From positions 62,001 to 126,000 of the forward strand of contig JAJPHS010000145.1 of the NCBI GenBank assembly GCA_021325175.1: a stretch of 64,000 bases of DNA. Reading direction: 5' to 3'. Source of the stretch: Terriglobia bacterium. Its GTDB lineage: Bacteria > Acidobacteriota > Terriglobia > Bryobacterales > Bryobacteraceae. A model generated the notes under the pieces. It did not search any database, was not told the origin of the DNA, and was given only the letters and a program-made list of their open reading frames with translations. Of this stretch, positions 2,570 through 48,233 are shown in pieces; position 1 is the stretch's first letter; every line of letters begins with the position of its first letter. The position numbers and the translations under genes are program-made.

Positions 2570-3468
2570 TACGTCTCCGCTGAGGCGTTCACCGCGCGCA
2601 GCACGCGCAGGCAGCGCTCCCGGACATATCCCAACTGCTCGCCGCGAACCATCAGTTCCTGTAGCGTGCCGACCACTTCCCGGTCCACGTCGCCGTGGGT
2701 TAAAAGATCGATCGCCTTGGTGCGCAGCCCCGGATTGGAATCGCCCAACAGCACGACGGTAAGGGCGTTGCGCACTTCCGGATCGGCGGCGTAAGGCGCC
2801 AGGCCGCTCATCGCTTTTTCGCGCACGCCCGCGTTGCCATCGTGCTCCAGCGCGTAGATCAGCGCGCCGCGGACGTCGGCCGAGGCGGCCTGAGCGTTCA
2901 AAATTCCCAGCGTCTCCGCGCGCAGGCCCGGATCGGAGGGGTCTTTCGCGGCGGCCAGCAGCAGGCCGCGAATCGGCGCCTCGTCGAGTTTGCCGGAAAT
3001 GACGCGCTGCCGCGTCACATCGACAACAATCTGCACGCGGCCCGCGCCCGCCGGCTCGACGTAGCGCACGCGCTCGTCGCCCGCCGCCGAGGCGGCGTTA
3101 AAATTTCCATTCAGATTGGCGTAGGGAAGAATGCGCGCGGCGAAGAATCCCATCGCCACCAGCGTCAGCGCGCCAACCGGCCGCAGGAAGCCGGATTGGG
3201 GAAGGAGGCGCTCCCACCATGGCGCGCGGGGCGGCGCGGCTTCCATGAGCCGCATGCGCAGGTCGTCGCGGCACCGCCTCAGCAGCGAGGGCGACGGCTC
3301 GATCTCGATTGCGCCGAAGGCGGCGTGCAGCGCTTTTTCGCGCTCCAGCGCCGCGCGGCACTCGGCGCAGCGATCCAGATGCGCTTCCACTTTTTCCTCG
3401 TGATCGAAGGAAAGCTCGCCGTATAAAAGCAGCGCGAATTGTTCGCGCGACCAATTGCACTCCGTCAT
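2566..3468 (-). CDS. Membrane anti-sigma factor: zinc-finger ZAS domain plus HEAT-like repeats
   Basis: The N-terminus carries a zf-HC2/ZAS motif, H30-x3-C34-x2-C37, which in this class binds the cognate ECF sigma factor in the cytoplasm. One membrane helix follows at about residues 94-113. The C-terminal ~110 residues form three or four HEAT-like helical repeats (for example VREKAMSGLAPYAADPEVRN), which would face the periplasm. It overlaps the sigma gene upstream and the DUF4097 gene downstream by 4 bp each (ATGA), a strong sign of a coupled operon. The HEAT-like extension is an uncommon sensory domain for an anti-sigma factor and could bind a protein partner; the ligand is unknown. Confidence 0.88.
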   Translation of the reverse strand: MTECNWSREQFALLLYGELSFDHEEKVEAHLDRCAECRAALEREKALHAAFGAIEIEPSPSLLRRCRDDLRMRLMEAAPPRAPWWERLLPQSGFLRPVGALTLVAMGFFAARILPYANLNGNFNAASAAGDERVRYVEPAGAGRVQIVVDVTRQRVISGKLDEAPIRGLLLAAAKDPSDPGLRAETLGILNAQAASADVRGALIYALEHDGNAGVREKAMSGLAPYAADPEVRNALTVVLLGDSNPGLRTKAIDLLTHGDVDREVVGTLQELMVRGEQLGYVRERCLRVLRAVNASAETY

Positions 3469-4085
3469 ATGAAATCTCCCAAAGCAGCCCGCATTTTCTG
3501 CGTGGCGCGAAACAGGCAGTTTTTCGCGGCTTCTTCCGAGGTCCCCAAAACTTCCCCGATTTTTCGCAGCCGCAAGCCCTGATAGTGTCGCAGCTCAAAG
3601 ACCACGCGCTCGCGCGGCGTCAGCTCCCCCAGCACTTCCTTGATTTTCCGCCGCAACTGGCCGCTGAACAGATAACGCTGCGGATCGCCGTCCACCCTTT
3701 CCTCCGGCACCGCGTCCATCCGGTCCATGGGCCCTTCGGCGGTGGCGAGCACGGTCGGCTCCTCCTTGCGAACCTTTCGTTTCCGCATCTGATCCAGGCA
3801 CAGATTGGTCACGATCCGGAACAGCCAGGTATGAAAGCTGCAATCGAAGCGGAACGCGTGCAGGTTGCGATACACCCGTAGAAAAGCTTCCTGATAAACA
3901 TCGTGCGCGTCTTCGGGCGATCGCAGAAGGTTCATGGCGAGCCTGAGCACACCCTGGTCGTAGGCGCGGACGAGCTGCTCGAAGGCGGCGTGATCGCCAT
4001 CCTGAGCCGCCCGGATCAGCGCCGCTTCGTCCAGCTCAAGGGACGGTTTTGAGGCCAAGGCGGCTCCACTCTTCCGGGGCAACAC
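3465..4085 (-). CDS. ECF-family RNA polymerase sigma factor
   Basis: The 206-residue protein has the two conserved sigma-70 parts and nothing more, which defines the ECF group. Region 2 spans about residues 22-95 (DAHDVYQEAFLRVYRNL, then FHTWLFRIVTNLCLDQMRKR). Region 4 spans about 150-200 (LTPRERVVFELRHYQGL with a helix-turn-helix and a C-terminal RATQKMRAAL). The start is GTG at 4085. It is the first gene of a five-gene minus-strand run and overlaps the anti-sigma gene by 4 bp. By family knowledge it directs transcription of an envelope or stress regulon and probably its own operon. I could not find a convincing GGAAC-type -35 upstream. Confidence 0.95.
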   Translation of the reverse strand: MLPRKSGAALASKPSLELDEAALIRAAQDGDHAAFEQLVRAYDQGVLRLAMNLLRSPEDAHDVYQEAFLRVYRNLHAFRFDCSFHTWLFRIVTNLCLDQMRKRKVRKEEPTVLATAEGPMDRMDAVPEERVDGDPQRYLFSGQLRRKIKEVLGELTPRERVVFELRHYQGLRLRKIGEVLGTSEEAAKNCLFRATQKMRAALGDFI

Positions 4086-4128: not shown

Positions 4129-4158
4129 TTGGTCGATGCCGAGGGGCTATGGTATACT
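4129..4158 (+). promoter_or_regulatory. Probable sigma-70 promoter of the PD40 propeller gene
   Basis: TTGGTC at 4129-4134 and TATACT at 4153-4158 are separated by 18 bp. The -10 box ends 9 bases before the chosen ATG at 4168, so the transcript would begin within a few bases of the start codon (leaderless or nearly so). No purine-rich ribosome binding site is visible. Confidence 0.5.
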
Positions 4159-4167
4159 CGCGCAGCC

Positions 4168-5913
4168 ATGAAGATCCTGCTCCTGCTCTGCCTTCTGGGC
4201 TGGGACGCGGCCAGCGCCGCCGATCCCGCCCGCTTGCTGTTTACGCGGATCGGGCCGGCGCAGACGGGTTTGTTCGTTGCGAATGCGGACGGCACAGGCG
4301 AGCGCCCGCTTCTGCCCGCCAACGGTCTCGACTATAATCCCTCCTTTTCGGCGGACGGCAAGTGGGTTGTGTTCACGTCCGAACGAGCCGGTTCCGCCGA
4401 CATTTACCGGGTGCATGCCGACGGCAGCGGGCTCGAACGGCTCACCGATGACCCTGCTTTCGACGATCAGGCGGCGCTGTCGCCCGAGGGATCGGAGCTC
4501 GCGTTTGTCTCCTCGCGCGAAGGCGGCTTTGCCAATATCTGGGTTCAGGATCTGTCGAGCGGGCGCGCGAGGCCGATCGCGAAGACGAACGCGGGCAGCT
4601 TTCGGCCGAGCTGGTCGCCGGACGGCAGGTGGATCGCTTTTACTTCGGATCGCGACACCCACCGCGCCAGATGGGATGGCGGATGGGAGTTTCTTCAATC
4701 GACCGGCCTGTATGTGGTTCGCGCCGACGGAACTTCGCTGCGGCGGCTGACCGGGCCGGGCGGCTACGCCGGCTCCCCGCGTTGGAGCGCGGACGGGCGG
4801 CGAATCCTCTTTTACCGGTCGACGCCGAAAGATGTCTATCCGGGGCGGCTTGGACGCAACCGGCCGGCGGTATCGCAGATCGTCTCGATTGAAGTGGAGT
4901 CGGGCGCCGTGCGCGAATATACTTCAGGACCGGGGCTGAAAGTCGCGCCGCAGTGGCTGCCCGGCGGCGAAATCGGGTATCTGCGCAAGTTCGGCGAAGA
5001 CAAAGGACTCGCGTTTGCGTCCGGCAAGAGCGCGGCGCATGGAATCATGCAGAATCCGTCGTGGTCGGCCGATGGCAAGATGGTGGTGTACCACAAACGG
5101 ACCGGCGATAAGCCGGCGTCGGGAATGACTCCGGCGTTCAGCCGCGATCCCGGCTTTTCGCTGTATCGCACCGGCGATTTTCCTTCGTGGTCGCCCGCCG
5201 GAGACCGCTTCGTCGTGTCGATCGAACCGGGCCTCCAGATGTTCGATGCAAAGGGCGGAAATGGCCGAATTATTTACGACAGCAAAGGCCCGCAGGTGGC
5301 GTTCCCGAGCTGGTCGCCGGACGGGAAAACCATCGCCTTCGGGGTCGGCTCCTATTTTAGCGGCCACGCCAAGCCGGCCGTGATCGCGATGGTGAATGCG
5401 GACGGAACAGGGTTCCGGAAGGTAACCGAGGGACCAGGCAATGCCGGCTTTCCAAGTTGGTCACCGGATGGAAAGCGGATCGTTTTCCGGGTGGCCGGGT
5501 CCGAGCAGGGTCTGCGGATCGTGGATCTGGAAAACGGCAACGTCACCAAGCTCACCACGGAATACGACAATTTTCCCGCATGGTCGCCGAAAGGGGATCT
5601 CATCGAATTCACCAGCTTCCGCGACGGCGATTTTGAGATTTATACCATCCGGCCGGACGGCTCCGGCGCGCGCCGGCTGACACAGACGGGCGGTAACGAC
5701 GCGCACGGAATCTGGTCGCCGGACGGGCAGTGGATCGTTTTCAGCAGCTCCCGTCTGGGATGGAAGGACGAAGCGTTCGTCCTCGACAGCGGACCGCAGC
5801 CTTATGGCGAATTATTCGCGATGCACCCCGATGGAAGCGGGCTCCGGCAGTTGACGGACAATCAATGGGAAGATGCGCTTCCCGCGTTTCAGCCGCGCAT
5901 GGCGATTCGCTGA
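4168..5913 (+). CDS. Secreted TolB-like PD40 beta-propeller protein
   Basis: I choose ATG 4168 because it gives a signal peptide (MKILLLLCLLGWDAASAA); an upstream in-frame ATG at 4129 would overlie the promoter. The 581-residue protein consists almost entirely of repeats with the PD40 signature 'PSWSPDGK.IAF', at least eight copies, which fold as one or two beta-propellers as in TolB. There is no peptidase domain and no TolB N-terminal domain, so it is not TolB proper nor a prolyl oligopeptidase. Family members bind proteins or polymers in the periplasm or outside. It stands alone, divergent from the sigma operon and convergent with rpsA. Confidence 0.82.
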   Translation: MKILLLLCLLGWDAASAADPARLLFTRIGPAQTGLFVANADGTGERPLLPANGLDYNPSFSADGKWVVFTSERAGSADIYRVHADGSGLERLTDDPAFDDQAALSPEGSELAFVSSREGGFANIWVQDLSSGRARPIAKTNAGSFRPSWSPDGRWIAFTSDRDTHRARWDGGWEFLQSTGLYVVRADGTSLRRLTGPGGYAGSPRWSADGRRILFYRSTPKDVYPGRLGRNRPAVSQIVSIEVESGAVREYTSGPGLKVAPQWLPGGEIGYLRKFGEDKGLAFASGKSAAHGIMQNPSWSADGKMVVYHKRTGDKPASGMTPAFSRDPGFSLYRTGDFPSWSPAGDRFVVSIEPGLQMFDAKGGNGRIIYDSKGPQVAFPSWSPDGKTIAFGVGSYFSGHAKPAVIAMVNADGTGFRKVTEGPGNAGFPSWSPDGKRIVFRVAGSEQGLRIVDLENGNVTKLTTEYDNFPAWSPKGDLIEFTSFRDGDFEIYTIRPDGSGARRLTQTGGNDAHGIWSPDGQWIVFSSSRLGWKDEAFVLDSGPQPYGELFAMHPDGSGLRQLTDNQWEDALPAFQPRMAIR

Positions 5914-5916
5914 AGC

Positions 5917-6354
5917 TTAGGCTAAATCCAATTCGATCTTTTTCTGCCCCGGATCGATCGCGGCGATGCGAAAACTGCGGACCTGTCCGGCCTTCGGCGC
6001 CTCGGAAGCCGACTGCGTCCCCGCACCCGCTTTCCACTTGGCGGCGAGCATCGCGCCCAGCGCCGACACATCCGCCTTGCCCGGCGCCGCGGTACTCTCT
6101 GGCCCTCTTTGCTCGGTGAGTTTGCATGTCGCAAACACACCTTCGCCCAGCTCCACCTTGGCGCGATTGCCGGAGACGTCGACGATGCGGCCGCTGACCG
6201 AATCGCCGGGTTTGTGCTCGGCGATGTATTCATCGATGCTGGTCGGCTCCAGTTGCTTGATCCCCAGCCGGATGCGGCGGCGTTCTTTATCCGCTTCGAG
6301 CACCTGCGCCTTCACCCGCTCGCCGACCTTCAACGCTTCGTTGGGATGATTCAA
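5917..6354 (-). CDS. rpsA: Ribosomal protein S1, C-terminal fragment after an in-frame stop
   Basis: This frame is the continuation of the S1 gene in the same reading frame after a single TAA at 6361-6363. It holds the second half of the fifth S1 RNA-binding domain (NHPNEALKVGERVKAQVL, ending RIRLGIKQL) and a divergent sixth domain ending ELDLA. Its only visible initiator is TTG 6354, which corresponds to an ordinary leucine codon in S1, and no good ribosome binding site precedes it. I therefore read it as the detached tail of one gene rather than a separate gene. Joined to the upstream part the protein would be about 551 residues, close to the usual S1 length. Confidence 0.8.
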   Translation of the reverse strand: MNHPNEALKVGERVKAQVLEADKERRRIRLGIKQLEPTSIDEYIAEHKPGDSVSGRIVDVSGNRAKVELGEGVFATCKLTEQRGPESTAAPGKADVSALGAMLAAKWKAGAGTQSASEAPKAGQVRSFRIAAIDPGQKKIELDLA

Positions 6355-6360
6355 CCGCTT

Positions 6361-7572
6361 TTACCGGCTGATGTCGCCGATGTGGATCATGCCTTCGACG
6401 CCTTCGCCCAGATCGACGAACGCGCCGAATTTTGCGAGGCTCGTCACCGCCGCTTCGACCACCGCGCCCACCGGATACTTCTTCACCGCCTCTTCCCACG
6501 GATCGCCAAGCGCCTGCTTCAATCCCAGGGCGATGCGCTTCTCCGCCGGATTGACGCCGAGCACTACCACCTCAACCATGTCGCCCACTTTCACAATGTT
6601 TTCGGGCTTGACGTTTTTCCGCGTCCACGACATTTCCGAAACGTGAATCAATCCCTCGATCCCCGGCTCCAGTTCAACGAACGCGCCGAAATCGGCGACT
6701 CGCGTGACTTTTCCCTTGACCCGCGCGCCCTGCGGATATTTTTGAGCAGTCAGACTCCACGGGTCCGGACCCAGTTGCTTTAATCCCAGCGCGATTTTGC
6801 GAGTTTCGCGATTAATCTTGAGGATTTTCACCTCGATCGACTCGCCTGGCGCGACCAGGTCGGATGGTTTGATGCCGCGCTGGTAGGACATATCGGAGAC
6901 GTGAAGCAATCCATCCACGCCGCCCAAGTCGATAAACGCGCCGAAATCCGTCACCATGCGCACCGTGCCGCGGACCACGTCGCCTTCCTGAAGCCGCGCG
7001 AACGCTTCTTCCCTGGCCTGCTTCTCGCGTTCCTCCAGCACGACGCGGCGATCGACCACCACGTCCTCCGACGCCGTATCGAGCTTGATGATCCGGCACT
7101 CGATCGGCTGGCCGACCAGTTTTTCCATCTCCGCCTGATCGCGCGCGCCGCTGCGTGATGCGGGCATGAACGCGCGCACGCCGACATCGACCCGCAGCCC
7201 GCCCTTCACCACTTCGAGCACCGTGCCGCCGATCGTTTTCTTGCTCGCGTAGGCGGCTTCAAGGCCGCTCCAGTCGCGCGGCGTCTCGATCTTGATGGTC
7301 GAGAGCGTGTAGTTGCCCTGCTCGTCGCGCCCGCGGATGGAAACCAGCAGCTTGTCGCCGGCTTTCAGCGGATGCGCCGGATCGGGCGCGAGCACGCCGT
7401 CCATTTTGCGGCCGATATCGACGAAGACGGCGTCGGAGCTAACCGAGACGACCGTTCCTTCCACCGCCTCGCCCCCGTGCTGGTGCGAATGTTCGAATTC
7501 AGAAAGAATTTCGCCGAAAGAGGATTCCGTAGACGTGGATTCGGCCGGATCGCTGAGATTGGACTGGCTCAT
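6361..7572 (-). CDS. rpsA: 30S ribosomal protein S1, N-terminal part ending at a premature stop
   Basis: The 403-residue product contains S1 domains 1 and 2 (ribosome-docking type) and domains 3 and 4 (DFGAFIDLGGVDGLLHVSDMS; DFGAFVELEPGIEGLIHVSEMS). It breaks off inside domain 5 just after GMIHIGDISR, where codon TAA 6363-6361 replaces what is probably GAA (Glu) in relatives. The frame is unbroken on both sides of the stop. S1 binds mRNA on the 30S subunit and is usually essential, although its last domains are dispensable in some bacteria. A one-base sequencing or assembly error, a true nonsense mutation, or readthrough would all fit. It is divergent from the sensor kinase gene. Confidence 0.9.
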   Translation of the reverse strand: MSQSNLSDPAESTSTESSFGEILSEFEHSHQHGGEAVEGTVVSVSSDAVFVDIGRKMDGVLAPDPAHPLKAGDKLLVSIRGRDEQGNYTLSTIKIETPRDWSGLEAAYASKKTIGGTVLEVVKGGLRVDVGVRAFMPASRSGARDQAEMEKLVGQPIECRIIKLDTASEDVVVDRRVVLEEREKQAREEAFARLQEGDVVRGTVRMVTDFGAFIDLGGVDGLLHVSDMSYQRGIKPSDLVAPGESIEVKILKINRETRKIALGLKQLGPDPWSLTAQKYPQGARVKGKVTRVADFGAFVELEPGIEGLIHVSEMSWTRKNVKPENIVKVGDMVEVVVLGVNPAEKRIALGLKQALGDPWEEAVKKYPVGAVVEAAVTSLAKFGAFVDLGEGVEGMIHIGDISR

Positions 7573-7684
7573 TTGAGGAAAAACCGTGGTGTGTCTTTAT
7601 TGTGTCACATCCGGCGCGCGCCGGATGTGGCCTCCGCGCCGCCCGGTTCGCCCCTCCCGCATCTCCAAATTATATGATTGGGAC

Positions 7685-9535
7685 GTGAATGAGTCCTTGC
7701 TCGTCAATACGCTGGGACATTCGGCCGGAGTCCTGATTTTCGGCATTTTCCTTTATCTGCTGATTCAGGATCGCGCCTCGCGCCGTCTGCCCGGCAGCGG
7801 CAAGGCGATGCTGGCGGCGGCTCTCGCTTTGCTCTGGAATCTCGCCTCGCTGATCGTGCTGGCCGCCAATTCGGCGGCGGACGTTTTCACCAGCGTCACC
7901 GTCGCGATCGGATTTTCGGTGCTCAGCCTGCTGCCCGCCGTCCTGTTTGATTTGTGCCTGCGCGCGCGCTTCCGCCTGCTGGTGACGCTCGGCTACGCCC
8001 TCAGCGCGGTTTGCATCGCGCTTCATTTAAGCGAGCTTGCCGCCGGCAACCCCGCCTATCATCGCCTGGGGCTGGCGCTCATCACCATCGGCTACGGCGC
8101 GTTTACCGTCATCGCGGCGTTGCGATTATTCGCCTCGCTCGATGAGAACCGCGGCGTCCTGACTTCGCGCCTGATCGGCACCATGTCGCTGTTCCTTCTG
8201 GCCATGAGCTTCGTCCACCTGCGCAGCGCCCACTTGAATCAGGTCTGGTCGCGCGAGCTGGCCTTTCACCACGCCGCGATCCCGCTGGCTTTGCTGGTGC
8301 TGCTTCAGGATTATCGCTTCGTCCTGTTGGACGCCTTTCTGCGATTCCTCGCCAACGTTCTGCTGGCGGCCCTGTTCACCTTCGGCGCGGTGGTCGCCTG
8401 GCGAGCTGGCCTGGCGCCGCCGCCGGAGACGCCGTTCGCGCAGGCCATGCTGCTCGCCGCCATCTGCCTGGCCCTGATCGTGTTCGCCCTGCTGCGATCG
8501 CGCCTGCAAAGCCTGATGACGCACCTGGTTTTTCGCCAGCCCGATTTGAACCATCTGCTGGATCGCCTGAAAGCGCCGGTGCGCGAGGAGGCCGCCTATC
8601 TGGAATCGGCGGCTCGCGAGCTCGGCCGCTTCATGGGCGCGGAAGCGGCCTTGAGCGACGATCCCAATCTCCCCGATCTCGATCTCGGCCGTCCCGTGCT
8701 GGTTTCCGAGCTGCCGCGAATGCGTGCCGAACTGGAGCAACGCGGCTTCGAGGTGGCGGCCCGCCTGCGCATCCCCTCCGGCGCGCGCTACATCCTCCTC
8801 GGCCGGCGGTCCGGCGGCCGGCGCTATCTGAGCGAGGATTTGCAGGCCCTGGGCCGCGCCGCCGCCCTCATCGAGGAACAAATCGAACAGTACCGCGAAT
8901 CGGAGATGCGGCGACTGGTGGCGCAAGCCGAGCTGCGCGCCCTGCAATCGCAGATTCATCCCCATTTCCTGTTCAACGCGCTGAACACCCTTTATGGCAT
9001 CATCCCGCGCGAAGCCCGCGGCGCGCGCGATACCGTCCTCAATCTCGCCGATATTTTCCGCTATTTCCTCGAAACGCAGAAAACGTTCTCGCGCCTGGAG
9101 GAGGAGCTGCACATCGTCAAGGCCTACCTCGATGTCGAACGATTGCGGCTCGGCCAAAAACTGCGCGTCGAAATCGAGGTGGAACAGAGCGCCCTCGACG
9201 CGCCCATCCCGATTCTTTCCATCCAGCCGCTGGTCGAAAACGCGGTAAAGCACGGGATCGCACCCAAACCCCAAGGCGGCCTGGTGCAATTGAACGCCGC
9301 CTTCGATTCGCGCGGCGATCTGGTAATTACGGTTCGCGACACCGGCGGCGGATTCGCGCCCGCGCGCTCCAAATCCGGCGTCGGACTCGACAACGTCACC
9401 CGCCGCCTCCAGCTCTGCTACGGCCCCGCGGCGCGGCTGCGCATCGATTCGGATTCGCGCGGCGCCGCCGTCGCTTTTTCCGTTCCCGCTTCGTCCATGA
9501 GCTCGATGCGCGCCGCCGAGGCGGTGTCGTCGTGA
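7685..9535 (+). CDS. LytS-like membrane sensor histidine kinase
   Basis: I choose GTG 7685 (MNESLLVNTLGHSAG); the frame is open back to 7586 but that leader is arginine-rich and lies in the divergent promoter region. The first ~270 residues make about eight membrane helices. A cytoplasmic linker follows, then a His_kinase domain with the phosphoacceptor motif QSQIHPHFLFNALNTLYG and an HATPase with PLVENAVKHGI, DTGGGF and GVGLDN. This is the LytS/YehU class. Its stop overlaps the response-regulator start (GTGA), so the two form a two-component pair. The signal sensed is unknown. A TATATG box lies 8 bases before the GTG, so the message may be leaderless. Confidence 0.9.
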   Translation: MNESLLVNTLGHSAGVLIFGIFLYLLIQDRASRRLPGSGKAMLAAALALLWNLASLIVLAANSAADVFTSVTVAIGFSVLSLLPAVLFDLCLRARFRLLVTLGYALSAVCIALHLSELAAGNPAYHRLGLALITIGYGAFTVIAALRLFASLDENRGVLTSRLIGTMSLFLLAMSFVHLRSAHLNQVWSRELAFHHAAIPLALLVLLQDYRFVLLDAFLRFLANVLLAALFTFGAVVAWRAGLAPPPETPFAQAMLLAAICLALIVFALLRSRLQSLMTHLVFRQPDLNHLLDRLKAPVREEAAYLESAARELGRFMGAEAALSDDPNLPDLDLGRPVLVSELPRMRAELEQRGFEVAARLRIPSGARYILLGRRSGGRRYLSEDLQALGRAAALIEEQIEQYRESEMRRLVAQAELRALQSQIHPHFLFNALNTLYGIIPREARGARDTVLNLADIFRYFLETQKTFSRLEEELHIVKAYLDVERLRLGQKLRVEIEVEQSALDAPIPILSIQPLVENAVKHGIAPKPQGGLVQLNAAFDSRGDLVITVRDTGGGFAPARSKSGVGLDNVTRRLQLCYGPAARLRIDSDSRGAAVAFSVPASSMSSMRAAEAVSS

Positions 9536-10242
9536 AGGTTCTGATCGCCGACGACGAGCCCATCGCCCGCCAGATTCTGCGCGAGCACGTCGAATCCATC
9601 CCCTCGCTTCAGGTCGCGGCCGAAACCTCGACCGGCGCCGAAACGCTGGCGCAAATTCTCGAAACCGATCCGGATATCGTGTTGCTCGATCTTCAAATGC
9701 CGGAGCTGGACGGCCTCAGCGTGGTCCGCAATCTGCGGCGGGATCGAAAGCCCGCCATCATTTTCGTTACCGCCTTCGAAAATCACGCGCTCGAGGCCTT
9801 CGATGTCGGCGCGGTCGATTATCTGCTGAAGCCGGTGCGGCGCGAGCGCCTGGAAAGGGCCATCCTCAAGGCCGGCCGCCACCTGAAGGGCGCCAGTCCC
9901 GCCGCTCCGGCGCCGCCCAAAAAAATCATCGGCCGCCGCGGCGAGAATCTCTATCTGCTCGACCCCAAAGAGATCGTCGCCTTTCAGGCCGAAGGCGAGC
10001 TGGTGCATTTGATCACCGTGTCGCAGCGCTATTTCGCCGATCCGCCGCTCAAGGCCATTGAGGAAAAATTGGAGCAGCCGCGCTTCCGCCGCATCCATCG
10101 CCGCACCATCATCAACACCGATCACATCCGTCGCATCTCGCCGTTATCGAGCAAGCGCTGGCTGCTGATCATGTCCAACGGATTCGAAGCGGTGGTGAGC
10201 AAGCGTCTGGCCAGCGCGATCCGCGACCAGGCCCGCTGGTAA
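9532..10242 (+). CDS. LytTR-family response regulator
   Basis: The start is GTG 9532, overlapping the kinase stop by 4 bp. The receiver domain covers residues 1-120 with acidic pocket D7/D8, phosphoacceptor D53 (LLDLQMPELDG), T80 and K100. A linker with several prolines leads to a LytTR DNA-binding domain at about 135-232 (FQAEGELVHLITVSQRYF, then FRRIHRRTIINTDHI). By family knowledge it binds direct repeats upstream of target genes after phosphorylation by its partner kinase. I could not identify its binding sites in this window. Confidence 0.94.
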   Translation: MKVLIADDEPIARQILREHVESIPSLQVAAETSTGAETLAQILETDPDIVLLDLQMPELDGLSVVRNLRRDRKPAIIFVTAFENHALEAFDVGAVDYLLKPVRRERLERAILKAGRHLKGASPAAPAPPKKIIGRRGENLYLLDPKEIVAFQAEGELVHLITVSQRYFADPPLKAIEEKLEQPRFRRIHRRTIINTDHIRRISPLSSKRWLLIMSNGFEAVVSKRLASAIRDQARW

Positions 10243-16235: not shown

Positions 16236-16270
16236 ATTTTTCCTAACTTGCCGCCGATAAGTAATCAGGC

Positions 16271-16978
16271 GTGGCGATCCAGACTAAGAAACCCGCGGCG
16301 AAGGAACTGATTATTCTGCGGCCGGACATGCACGTGCCGCGATGGGAAAGCGTGCTGGAGGACGCCGCGCAGGCGCCCGCGATCCTGATCGTCGATGACG
16401 TCGACCTGAACCGGCGTCTGCTCAAAGCCATTCTCAAAACGGCAAATTATCGAATTTTCGAAGCGAAACGGCCCTCGGCGGCGATGGCGATTCTGGAGCG
16501 CGAAAAAATCGACCTGGTGGTGATCGATCTGGTGATCCCGGAGATGTCCGGACCCGAATTTTCCCGGATGCTCAAGAACGACCGCAAAACGCAGTTGATT
16601 CCGATTCTGATGACCACCAGCGTTCAGGGCACGGAAAACGAAGTGGCCGGCATTGAATCGGGCGCCGACGAATTTCTGCTCAAGCCGCTGCAGCCAAGCA
16701 TCGTACGGTCGCGCGTTCGCGCCATGCTGCGCAATAAAGCCCTGATCGATTCGCTTGAAGAAGCCGAGACGATTCTGTTGCGCTGGCGCAATCGGTGGAG
16801 CATCGCGATAAATACACGGGCATGCATTGCGAGCGGCTGGCGAGCTACAGCATCGCGCTCGGCCGCGCGCTGGGTCTGCCGCGACAGGATCAGCTTGCGC
16901 TCTATCGCGGCGGATATTTGCACGATATCGGCAAGATCGGGATTCCGGATTCGATTCTGTTCAAGCGCGGGCTGCTGA
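16271..16978 (+). CDS. Response-regulator receiver domain of a frameshifted HD-GYP regulator
   Basis: The frame starts at GTG 16271. After ~35 residues comes a receiver domain (AILIVDDVDLNRRLL, acceptor aspartate in LVVIDLVIPEMSG, then TTSVQG and EFLLKPLQP). The sequence stays typical up to SLEEAETIL at about 16777; beyond that this frame turns into arginine/serine-rich noise until 16978. In the next frame, immediately from 16780, the expected continuation ALAQSVEHRDKYTGMH appears, so one base seems to be missing at about 16778-16780. The intact protein would be ~375 residues, a receiver plus HD-GYP c-di-GMP phosphodiesterase. Confidence 0.8.
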   Translation: MAIQTKKPAAKELIILRPDMHVPRWESVLEDAAQAPAILIVDDVDLNRRLLKAILKTANYRIFEAKRPSAAMAILEREKIDLVVIDLVIPEMSGPEFSRMLKNDRKTQLIPILMTTSVQGTENEVAGIESGADEFLLKPLQPSIVRSRVRAMLRNKALIDSLEEAETILLRWRNRWSIAINTRACIASGWRATASRSAARWVCRDRISLRSIAADICTISARSGFRIRFCSSAGC

Positions 16979-17397
16979 CAGACGAGGAGTGGCAGGCGAT
17001 GCGGCTGCACACGATTCGCGGCGAGGAGATCTGCCGGCCGATGAAGACGCTGGCGCCGGTGCTGCCGATCATCCGCAGCCATCATGAGCGCTGGGACGGG
17101 ACGGGTTATCCGGACCGGCTGGCGGGGGAAGAAATTCCGCTGCTGGCGCGAATTCTGCAAGTGGCCGACATTTACGACGCACTCACCACGGCGCGGCCGT
17201 ATAAGCCGGCGTTCACCCATCAGCACGCCGTCGAGATCATGCTGGAGGAGGCGCGGCGCGGGTGGCGCGATCCGGAGCTGGTGCCGTTATTCGCCGAAAT
17301 ATGCCAAAAGCCGTACGTCGACGAGCTGAATCCGGCGGCAAGTAGCGTTACAATGCAGCAATCGCTTGAAAATATGCGGCGGGAGCTGTCGAAATAG
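16795..17397 (+). CDS. HD-GYP cyclic-di-GMP phosphodiesterase domain (second half of frameshifted regulator)
   Basis: This 200-residue frame carries all HD-GYP landmarks: GYLHDIGKIGIPD with the HD metal ligands, the HHERWDGTGYP segment that gives the family its name, and ILQVADIYDALTT. The frame is open back to about 16780, where it abuts the receiver domain in the other frame. The GTG at 16795 is a possible independent start but has no clear ribosome binding site. By family knowledge the domain hydrolyses c-di-GMP to GMP or pGpG. Whether it is expressed as a separate protein, through frameshifting, or is one gene misassembled here, cannot be told from sequence alone. Confidence 0.82.
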   Translation: MEHRDKYTGMHCERLASYSIALGRALGLPRQDQLALYRGGYLHDIGKIGIPDSILFKRGLLTDEEWQAMRLHTIRGEEICRPMKTLAPVLPIIRSHHERWDGTGYPDRLAGEEIPLLARILQVADIYDALTTARPYKPAFTHQHAVEIMLEEARRGWRDPELVPLFAEICQKPYVDELNPAASSVTMQQSLENMRRELSK

Positions 17398-47799: not shown

Positions 47800-48233
47800 T
47801 CAGTGTGGCAGCGATTTCAGGTACGCCAGCACGGCCTGCGCGTCCTCGCGCGTCATGTGAAACTGGAGCATCGGCGGACGCGGCGCTCTCCCGGTGCGGG
47901 CGATTCCCGTGGTCAACAAGCGAATGATTTCTGCATCCGTCCCCGGCGGCGTGCCCGCAATCCGCGGCAGATCACCGCCCAATCGGGCGACGAATAGGTC
48001 GGCCGGAGCTGCGTCGGACCGCCCATCAGCCAGTGCTCGCGATCGGGAGTGCCGTCGGGATTTCGAGGCGTATGGCACTGTTCGCACATCACCTGATCCT
48101 CGACGATGTAGCGCCCGCGATCGATCAGATCCTTATTGCTCTTCACCGCCTTGACTTGAGCGTGAGAGCTCGACGCCCAGTTCATCATCAGCGCAACCAC
48201 CGGGACAAGGGAAAATCGGAATAATTTATTCAT
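47800..48233 (-). pseudogene. Secreted c-type cytochrome with an apparent frameshift
   Basis: Reading from ATG 48233, a signal peptide (LFRFSLVPVVALMMNWASSSHAQ) leads to CEQCH, a haem-c site, and PTYSSPDWAV up to about 47974. The expected C-terminal part (GDLPRIAGTPPGTDAEIIRLLTTGIARTG, then REDAQAVLAYLKSLPH) is found in the adjacent frame from about 47973. One base appears to be missing at 47973-47977. The intact protein would be ~144 residues, a periplasmic mono-haem electron carrier, common in acidobacteria next to dehydrogenases. It lies 40 bp after leuD on the same strand. Confidence 0.75.

Follow-up and report, generated by a model that had tools for sequence, protein, structure and literature searches.

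The stop codon that interrupts a ribosomal protein S1 frame in the DNA analysed here (the window, a stretch of 64,000 nucleotides at G000:C2:62001-126000, from a soil acidobacterium's draft genome of 178 contigs that is 94.3% complete) lies, to judge by sequence, in a divergent, old S1 paralog, and the canonical rpsA of the genome is elsewhere. The stop is read here as a real and very young nonsense allele, with a probability of roughly one in two, and this reading is favoured over a base error. A truncated essential S1 would have been surprising, but that possibility fails because the canonical copy is intact. The most likely outcome is therefore that this spare, ancient S1 paralog carries an ordinary nonsense allele or a base error.

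The interrupted frame

The interrupted gene lies on the minus strand and consists of the following parts:

6364..7572, minus strand: S1 paralog, first 403 codons; domains 1-4 by position and about half of the fifth (Pfam reports four S1 stretches)
6361..6363, minus strand: in-frame TAA; GAA in the sister genome, Glu or Asp in 29 of 29 aligned relatives
5917..6360, minus strand: rest of the same S1 frame; the remaining half of domain 5, a degenerate domain 6 and the tail, ending with TAA 5919-5917
6352..6354, minus strand: TTG, possible reinitiation codon; a 145-aa ORF runs from there

The S1 frame starts with an ATG at 7572 and runs for 403 codons (ORF 7572..6361, 403 aa). After TAA 6363-6361 the same frame stays open, beginning KRLNHPNEALKVG... 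and continuing up to TAA 5919-5917, so that the protein read through has 551 residues. The ORF from TTG 6354 matches, from its third residue onward, positions 44-74 of the 74 in the Pfam S1 profile, and this places the stop (residue 404) roughly midway through S1 domain 5, about 39 positions into it. In these respects the initial annotation was accurate: the 403-codon frame, the TAA, the continuation to 5917, the normal S1 length of about 551 residues on readthrough and the location of the stop inside domain 5 all hold. A frame left open by chance after the stop was rejected, as the 147 codons that follow it are 89.8% identical to the sister's protein and show a dN/dS of 0.122.

Comparison with close relatives was carried out on an alignment of 30 genes. 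The sister genome (G012), whose protein is 92% identical, has GAA at the place of the stop, and the other 28 relatives have GAG, GAA, GAC or GAT; all 29 thus carry a sense codon for an acidic residue there, with no other stop in the aligned frame. The suggestion that changing TAA to GAA, a single base, would restore a common family sequence is borne out. Given the sister's GAA and the Glu or Asp of every aligned relative, the stop is, on this alignment, one base substitution (G to T, coding strand) that converts a Glu codon to TAA. It had also been proposed that GAA in a sister genome would mark the stop as an error; this does not follow, since a recent real mutation predicts the same pattern.

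Two S1 genes in the genome and in the family

The identification of the gene as rpsA did not survive comparison with the rest of the genome, and with it went the proposal of a truncated or recoded essential rpsA. Another S1 gene, on contig C101, is uninterrupted, encodes 574 aa and is canonical, with six Pfam S1 stretches and a TIGR00717 score of 586.5 (cut-off 577). The window gene read through scores 481.8 against TIGR00717, below the cut-off; it has four Pfam S1 stretches (251.2 bits), which shows that multiple tandem S1 domains are present, and it scores 541.4 against NF004952 (cut-off 524) when read through and 471.1 when truncated. In a midpoint-rooted S1 tree of 57 rows (54 of them different), a 100/100 split places the window gene in a group of 26 rows, three of which are duplicate copies of a gene, apart from 31 rows that include the canonical copies. 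The canonical S1 copies of G000 (the window's genome), G012, G040, G047, G057, G058 and G074 are all on the other side of this split. Truncation of the essential rpsA was thus rejected, given the intact 574-aa canonical S1 and the separate paralog group to which the window gene belongs. The paralog group extends to other families of the order and class, and the duplication is therefore old.

Two side observations came from the same searches. In G074 (L197) the paralog and the canonical S1 adjoin on the same strand (4290-5921 and 6720-8537), which suggests an old tandem duplication. Both acidobacterial S1 genes are also present in a public record titled Bordetella parapertussis isolate HRS-HS12-bin-180, a title that looks wrong.

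Almost all genomes of the family have at least part of the paralog. It was found at E up to 1e-128 in 191 of 200 family genomes, 150 of these through the listed family matches; the other 41, and the nine genomes without a match at this level, were searched genome by genome. In four of these nine (G064, G084, G128 and G198) the paralog is present in pieces, which brings to 195 of 200 the genomes with at least part of it, while in G082, G174, G180, G190 and G208 only the canonical S1 was found. G082 is 99% complete, and at E up to 1e-40 nothing but the canonical S1 was found in it, which means that a genome can lack the paralog. Among the 200 family genomes, a stop inside the paralog was seen in G000 only. 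The canonical S1 was matched at 1e-150 in 182 of the 200 genomes searched, and none of the matches listed had a stop. Across 61 genomes, two other members of the class have an in-frame stop in the paralog, each at another place: a TAA in G058 (L045) and a TGA in G037 (L046), the latter gene assigned to the paralog by 60% identity, outside the tree. Both genomes are drafts in which the paralog lies at a contig end. Stops in G033, G011 and G025 were left uncounted, being in short, weak matches within other S1-domain proteins. This pattern of occasional interruption means either that the paralog is dispensable or that drafts err.

Selection, frame breaks and the origin of the stop

Between G000 and G012 the dN/dS of the gene is 0.161 before the stop and 0.122 after it. 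Changes after the stop were sorted to branches using other relatives: the G000 branch has 7 nonsynonymous and 15 synonymous ones, the G012 branch 8 nonsynonymous and 9 synonymous ones, and 3 synonymous changes are unplaced. Neither dN/dS nor the branch counts detected relaxed selection after the stop. Had this part of the gene been unconstrained over the whole G000 branch, 47-56 nonsynonymous changes would be expected in place of the 7 observed, and an old pseudogene was rejected on this ground; the unconstrained share of the branch is at most 13-18% (95% bound). It follows that the stop is very young, or an error, or read through.

In the favoured account, we infer that the base change itself is real. 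The G-to-T change on the coding strand would turn the Glu codon to TAA and end translation after residue 403, leaving a product with domains 1-4 and a half domain 5 presumably unable to complete its barrel. The function of this short product would probably be reduced or lost, and the cell would tolerate the truncation because its canonical S1 is intact. The intact homologs, the intact canonical S1 and the lack of relaxation count for a young allele, as do the absence of the paralog in G082 and the stops at other places in the paralogs of G058 and G037. Against it, the paralog is found in 195 of 200 family genomes and is constrained; being nearly universal and constrained, its loss should carry a cost. 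An error would leave the gene just as unrelaxed, and the stops of G058 and G037 sit at the contig ends of drafts.

The strongest competitor, quite possible although held less probable than a young allele, is that the gene is really intact and that the TAA is a mistake of sequencing or assembly, or a base that reached the draft consensus from a minor strain. The sense codon in the sister and in all 29 aligned relatives is as an error would have it, as are the unrelaxed downstream part, the near universality and constraint of the gene and the draft state of the assembly. Of the 165 single-base changes that would create a stop in this gene, moreover, G-to-T accounts for 58, more than any other kind, and the stop of G037 sits where a Gly codon one G-to-T away is expected. 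Three more frame breaks, which the sister does not have, lie on the same contig:

16265-17394, break at 16779: one base missing in the frame of a response regulator that has an HD (HD-GYP-like) domain; sister frame whole (377 aa)
47803-48200, break at 47967: lacks one base present in the sister; small protein named cytochrome-c-like for its CEQCH motif, without a Pfam hit; close to where the sister's contig ends
C2 near 29063, beyond the window: MFS transporter; two bases net, a cluster of changes

At least one of these breaks, in the MFS gene, is a cluster of changes and no simple slip, which counts against error and for a young allele. Several essential-gene frames of G000 are also whole: rpoB (intact when tested with Pfam), its neighbour of 1412 aa (by position rpoC), the canonical S1, and the frames reading as enolase and phosphoglycerate mutase (pgm). 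This is a weak test of error, as all of them together hold too few residues to serve as a gauge.

The breaks were placed in context by comparing stretches shared by the parts of G000 and G012 that were covered, in which 84 coding ORFs of G012 have a G000 homolog and 94 the reverse. After filtering (ORF of at least 100 aa, identity of at least 70%, third-position bias), the raw breaks numbered 20 for G000 and 9 for G012; most were then set aside by eye as stops upstream of a likely start, wrong-frame ORFs or terminal differences. Five listed pairs were translated, of which the MFS gene was kept; the HD regulator and the cytochrome-c-like gene were translated separately, and the rest were dropped from the table. 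The resulting count of broken genes, 4 of 84 compared in G000 and 0 of 94 in G012, where no gene is broken for certain, gives a Fisher p of 0.048 that rests on this sorting by eye. The asymmetry fits either a weaker assembly or faster gene loss, and to the extent that it could mean the former it weighs against a young allele.

Two further explanations accept the stop as real but give its product, or the sequence beyond it, a function. It is improbable that the 403-residue product is a working four-domain short S1, tolerated or useful in the manner of C-terminally shortened E. coli S1. The first four domains are retained, and E. coli rpsA lacking domains 5-6 is described as viable, slow-growing and cold-sensitive (PMC3858243), so that even truncation of a canonical S1 would have a precedent. 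In the window gene, however, the cut falls inside domain 5 and not between domains. An alignment of 12 sequences shows conservation of domain 5 and of the segment that follows, weaker in the far tail; what lies beyond the stop is constrained, and none of the 29 aligned relatives ends at this place.

Least probable of all is that both halves are made, either because the stop is read through by suppression or recoding or through a restart at TTG 6354. The frame after the stop is still constrained, as this would require, and it has been proposed that prokaryotes often read through in-frame stops (PMC7918605). Nevertheless, a stop is found at this place in 0 of 29 aligned relatives, and TAA also terminates the gene's own frame and that of the sister. 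No stop-reading anticodon was present in 37 typed of 38 tRNA hits, a set without Ile or Asn tRNA from a genome 94.3% complete. The 91 nt of RNA after the stop, searched for a stimulating structure, fold no better than shuffles (z +1.19). As for a restart, its product would comprise only half of domain 5 and a degenerate domain 6. TTG 6354 is an in-frame leucine codon (TTG in 7 of the 30 aligned genes, that of the window included, and CTG in the sister), and no ribosome-binding site before it was evident on reading the sequence. Readthrough and reinitiation, both raised as options at the outset, thus drew no positive evidence from relatives, tRNAs or RNA fold.

Neighbourhood, possible role and comparison with known systems

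The genes flanking the S1 paralog are as follows:

3465..4085, minus strand: ECF-type sigma gene, then a zf-HC2 protein
4129..5913, plus strand: PD40 beta-propeller gene; convergent, separating the S1 paralog from the sigma gene, also in sister G012
7586..9535, plus strand: histidine kinase gene (Pfam His_kinase); divergent, upstream of the S1 paralog
9532-10242: LytTR response regulator, after the histidine kinase gene

Of 39 related loci, 16 have an ECF sigma homolog after the S1 paralog and in its orientation, with the match ends 43-193 bases apart. The 39 remain from 45 loci once those of the window and the sister and four duplicates from genomes already represented are removed, and several of them have too little flank to show a sigma gene. 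The S1 paralog and the ECF sigma gene may therefore share an operon in many relatives, and the zf-HC2 protein after the sigma gene is likely to be an anti-sigma factor. As far as gene order can indicate, the coupling to an ECF sigma gene offers the best hint at the role of the paralog. The second S1 could be a specialised ribosomal or stress RNA-binding protein. No description of it was found in searches of the open-access literature. The most far-reaching proposal is that the class has two ancient S1s, that the divergent member, in many cases linked to an ECF sigma/anti-sigma operon, may serve special ribosomes or a stress-time RNA task, and that it has just been cut to a four-domain form in a lineage in which PD40 separates it from the sigma gene; taken as a whole this is unlikely. 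The conserved second S1 of the family is nonetheless a useful by-product of the analysis and deserves follow-up.

With regard to known systems, the window paralog resembles bS1 (rpsA; TIGR00717, NF004952) in its tandem S1 (OB-fold) domains, its length of about 550 residues when read through and its passing of NF004952, but it differs in falling below the TIGR00717 cut-off, in having four and not six Pfam S1 stretches and in forming a separate group in the tree. With the E. coli rpsA alleles that lack domain 6 or domains 5-6 it shares the C-terminal truncation of an S1-type protein; in those alleles whole domains are removed at the native rpsA locus (PMC3858243), whereas the window case is a second S1 cut within domain 5. 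It is also like an ordinary bacterial nonsense pseudogene, or a draft in-frame stop, in which a single stop interrupts an otherwise intact homologous frame; compared with the ordinary nonsense pseudogene, the window paralog shows no detectable relaxed selection yet.
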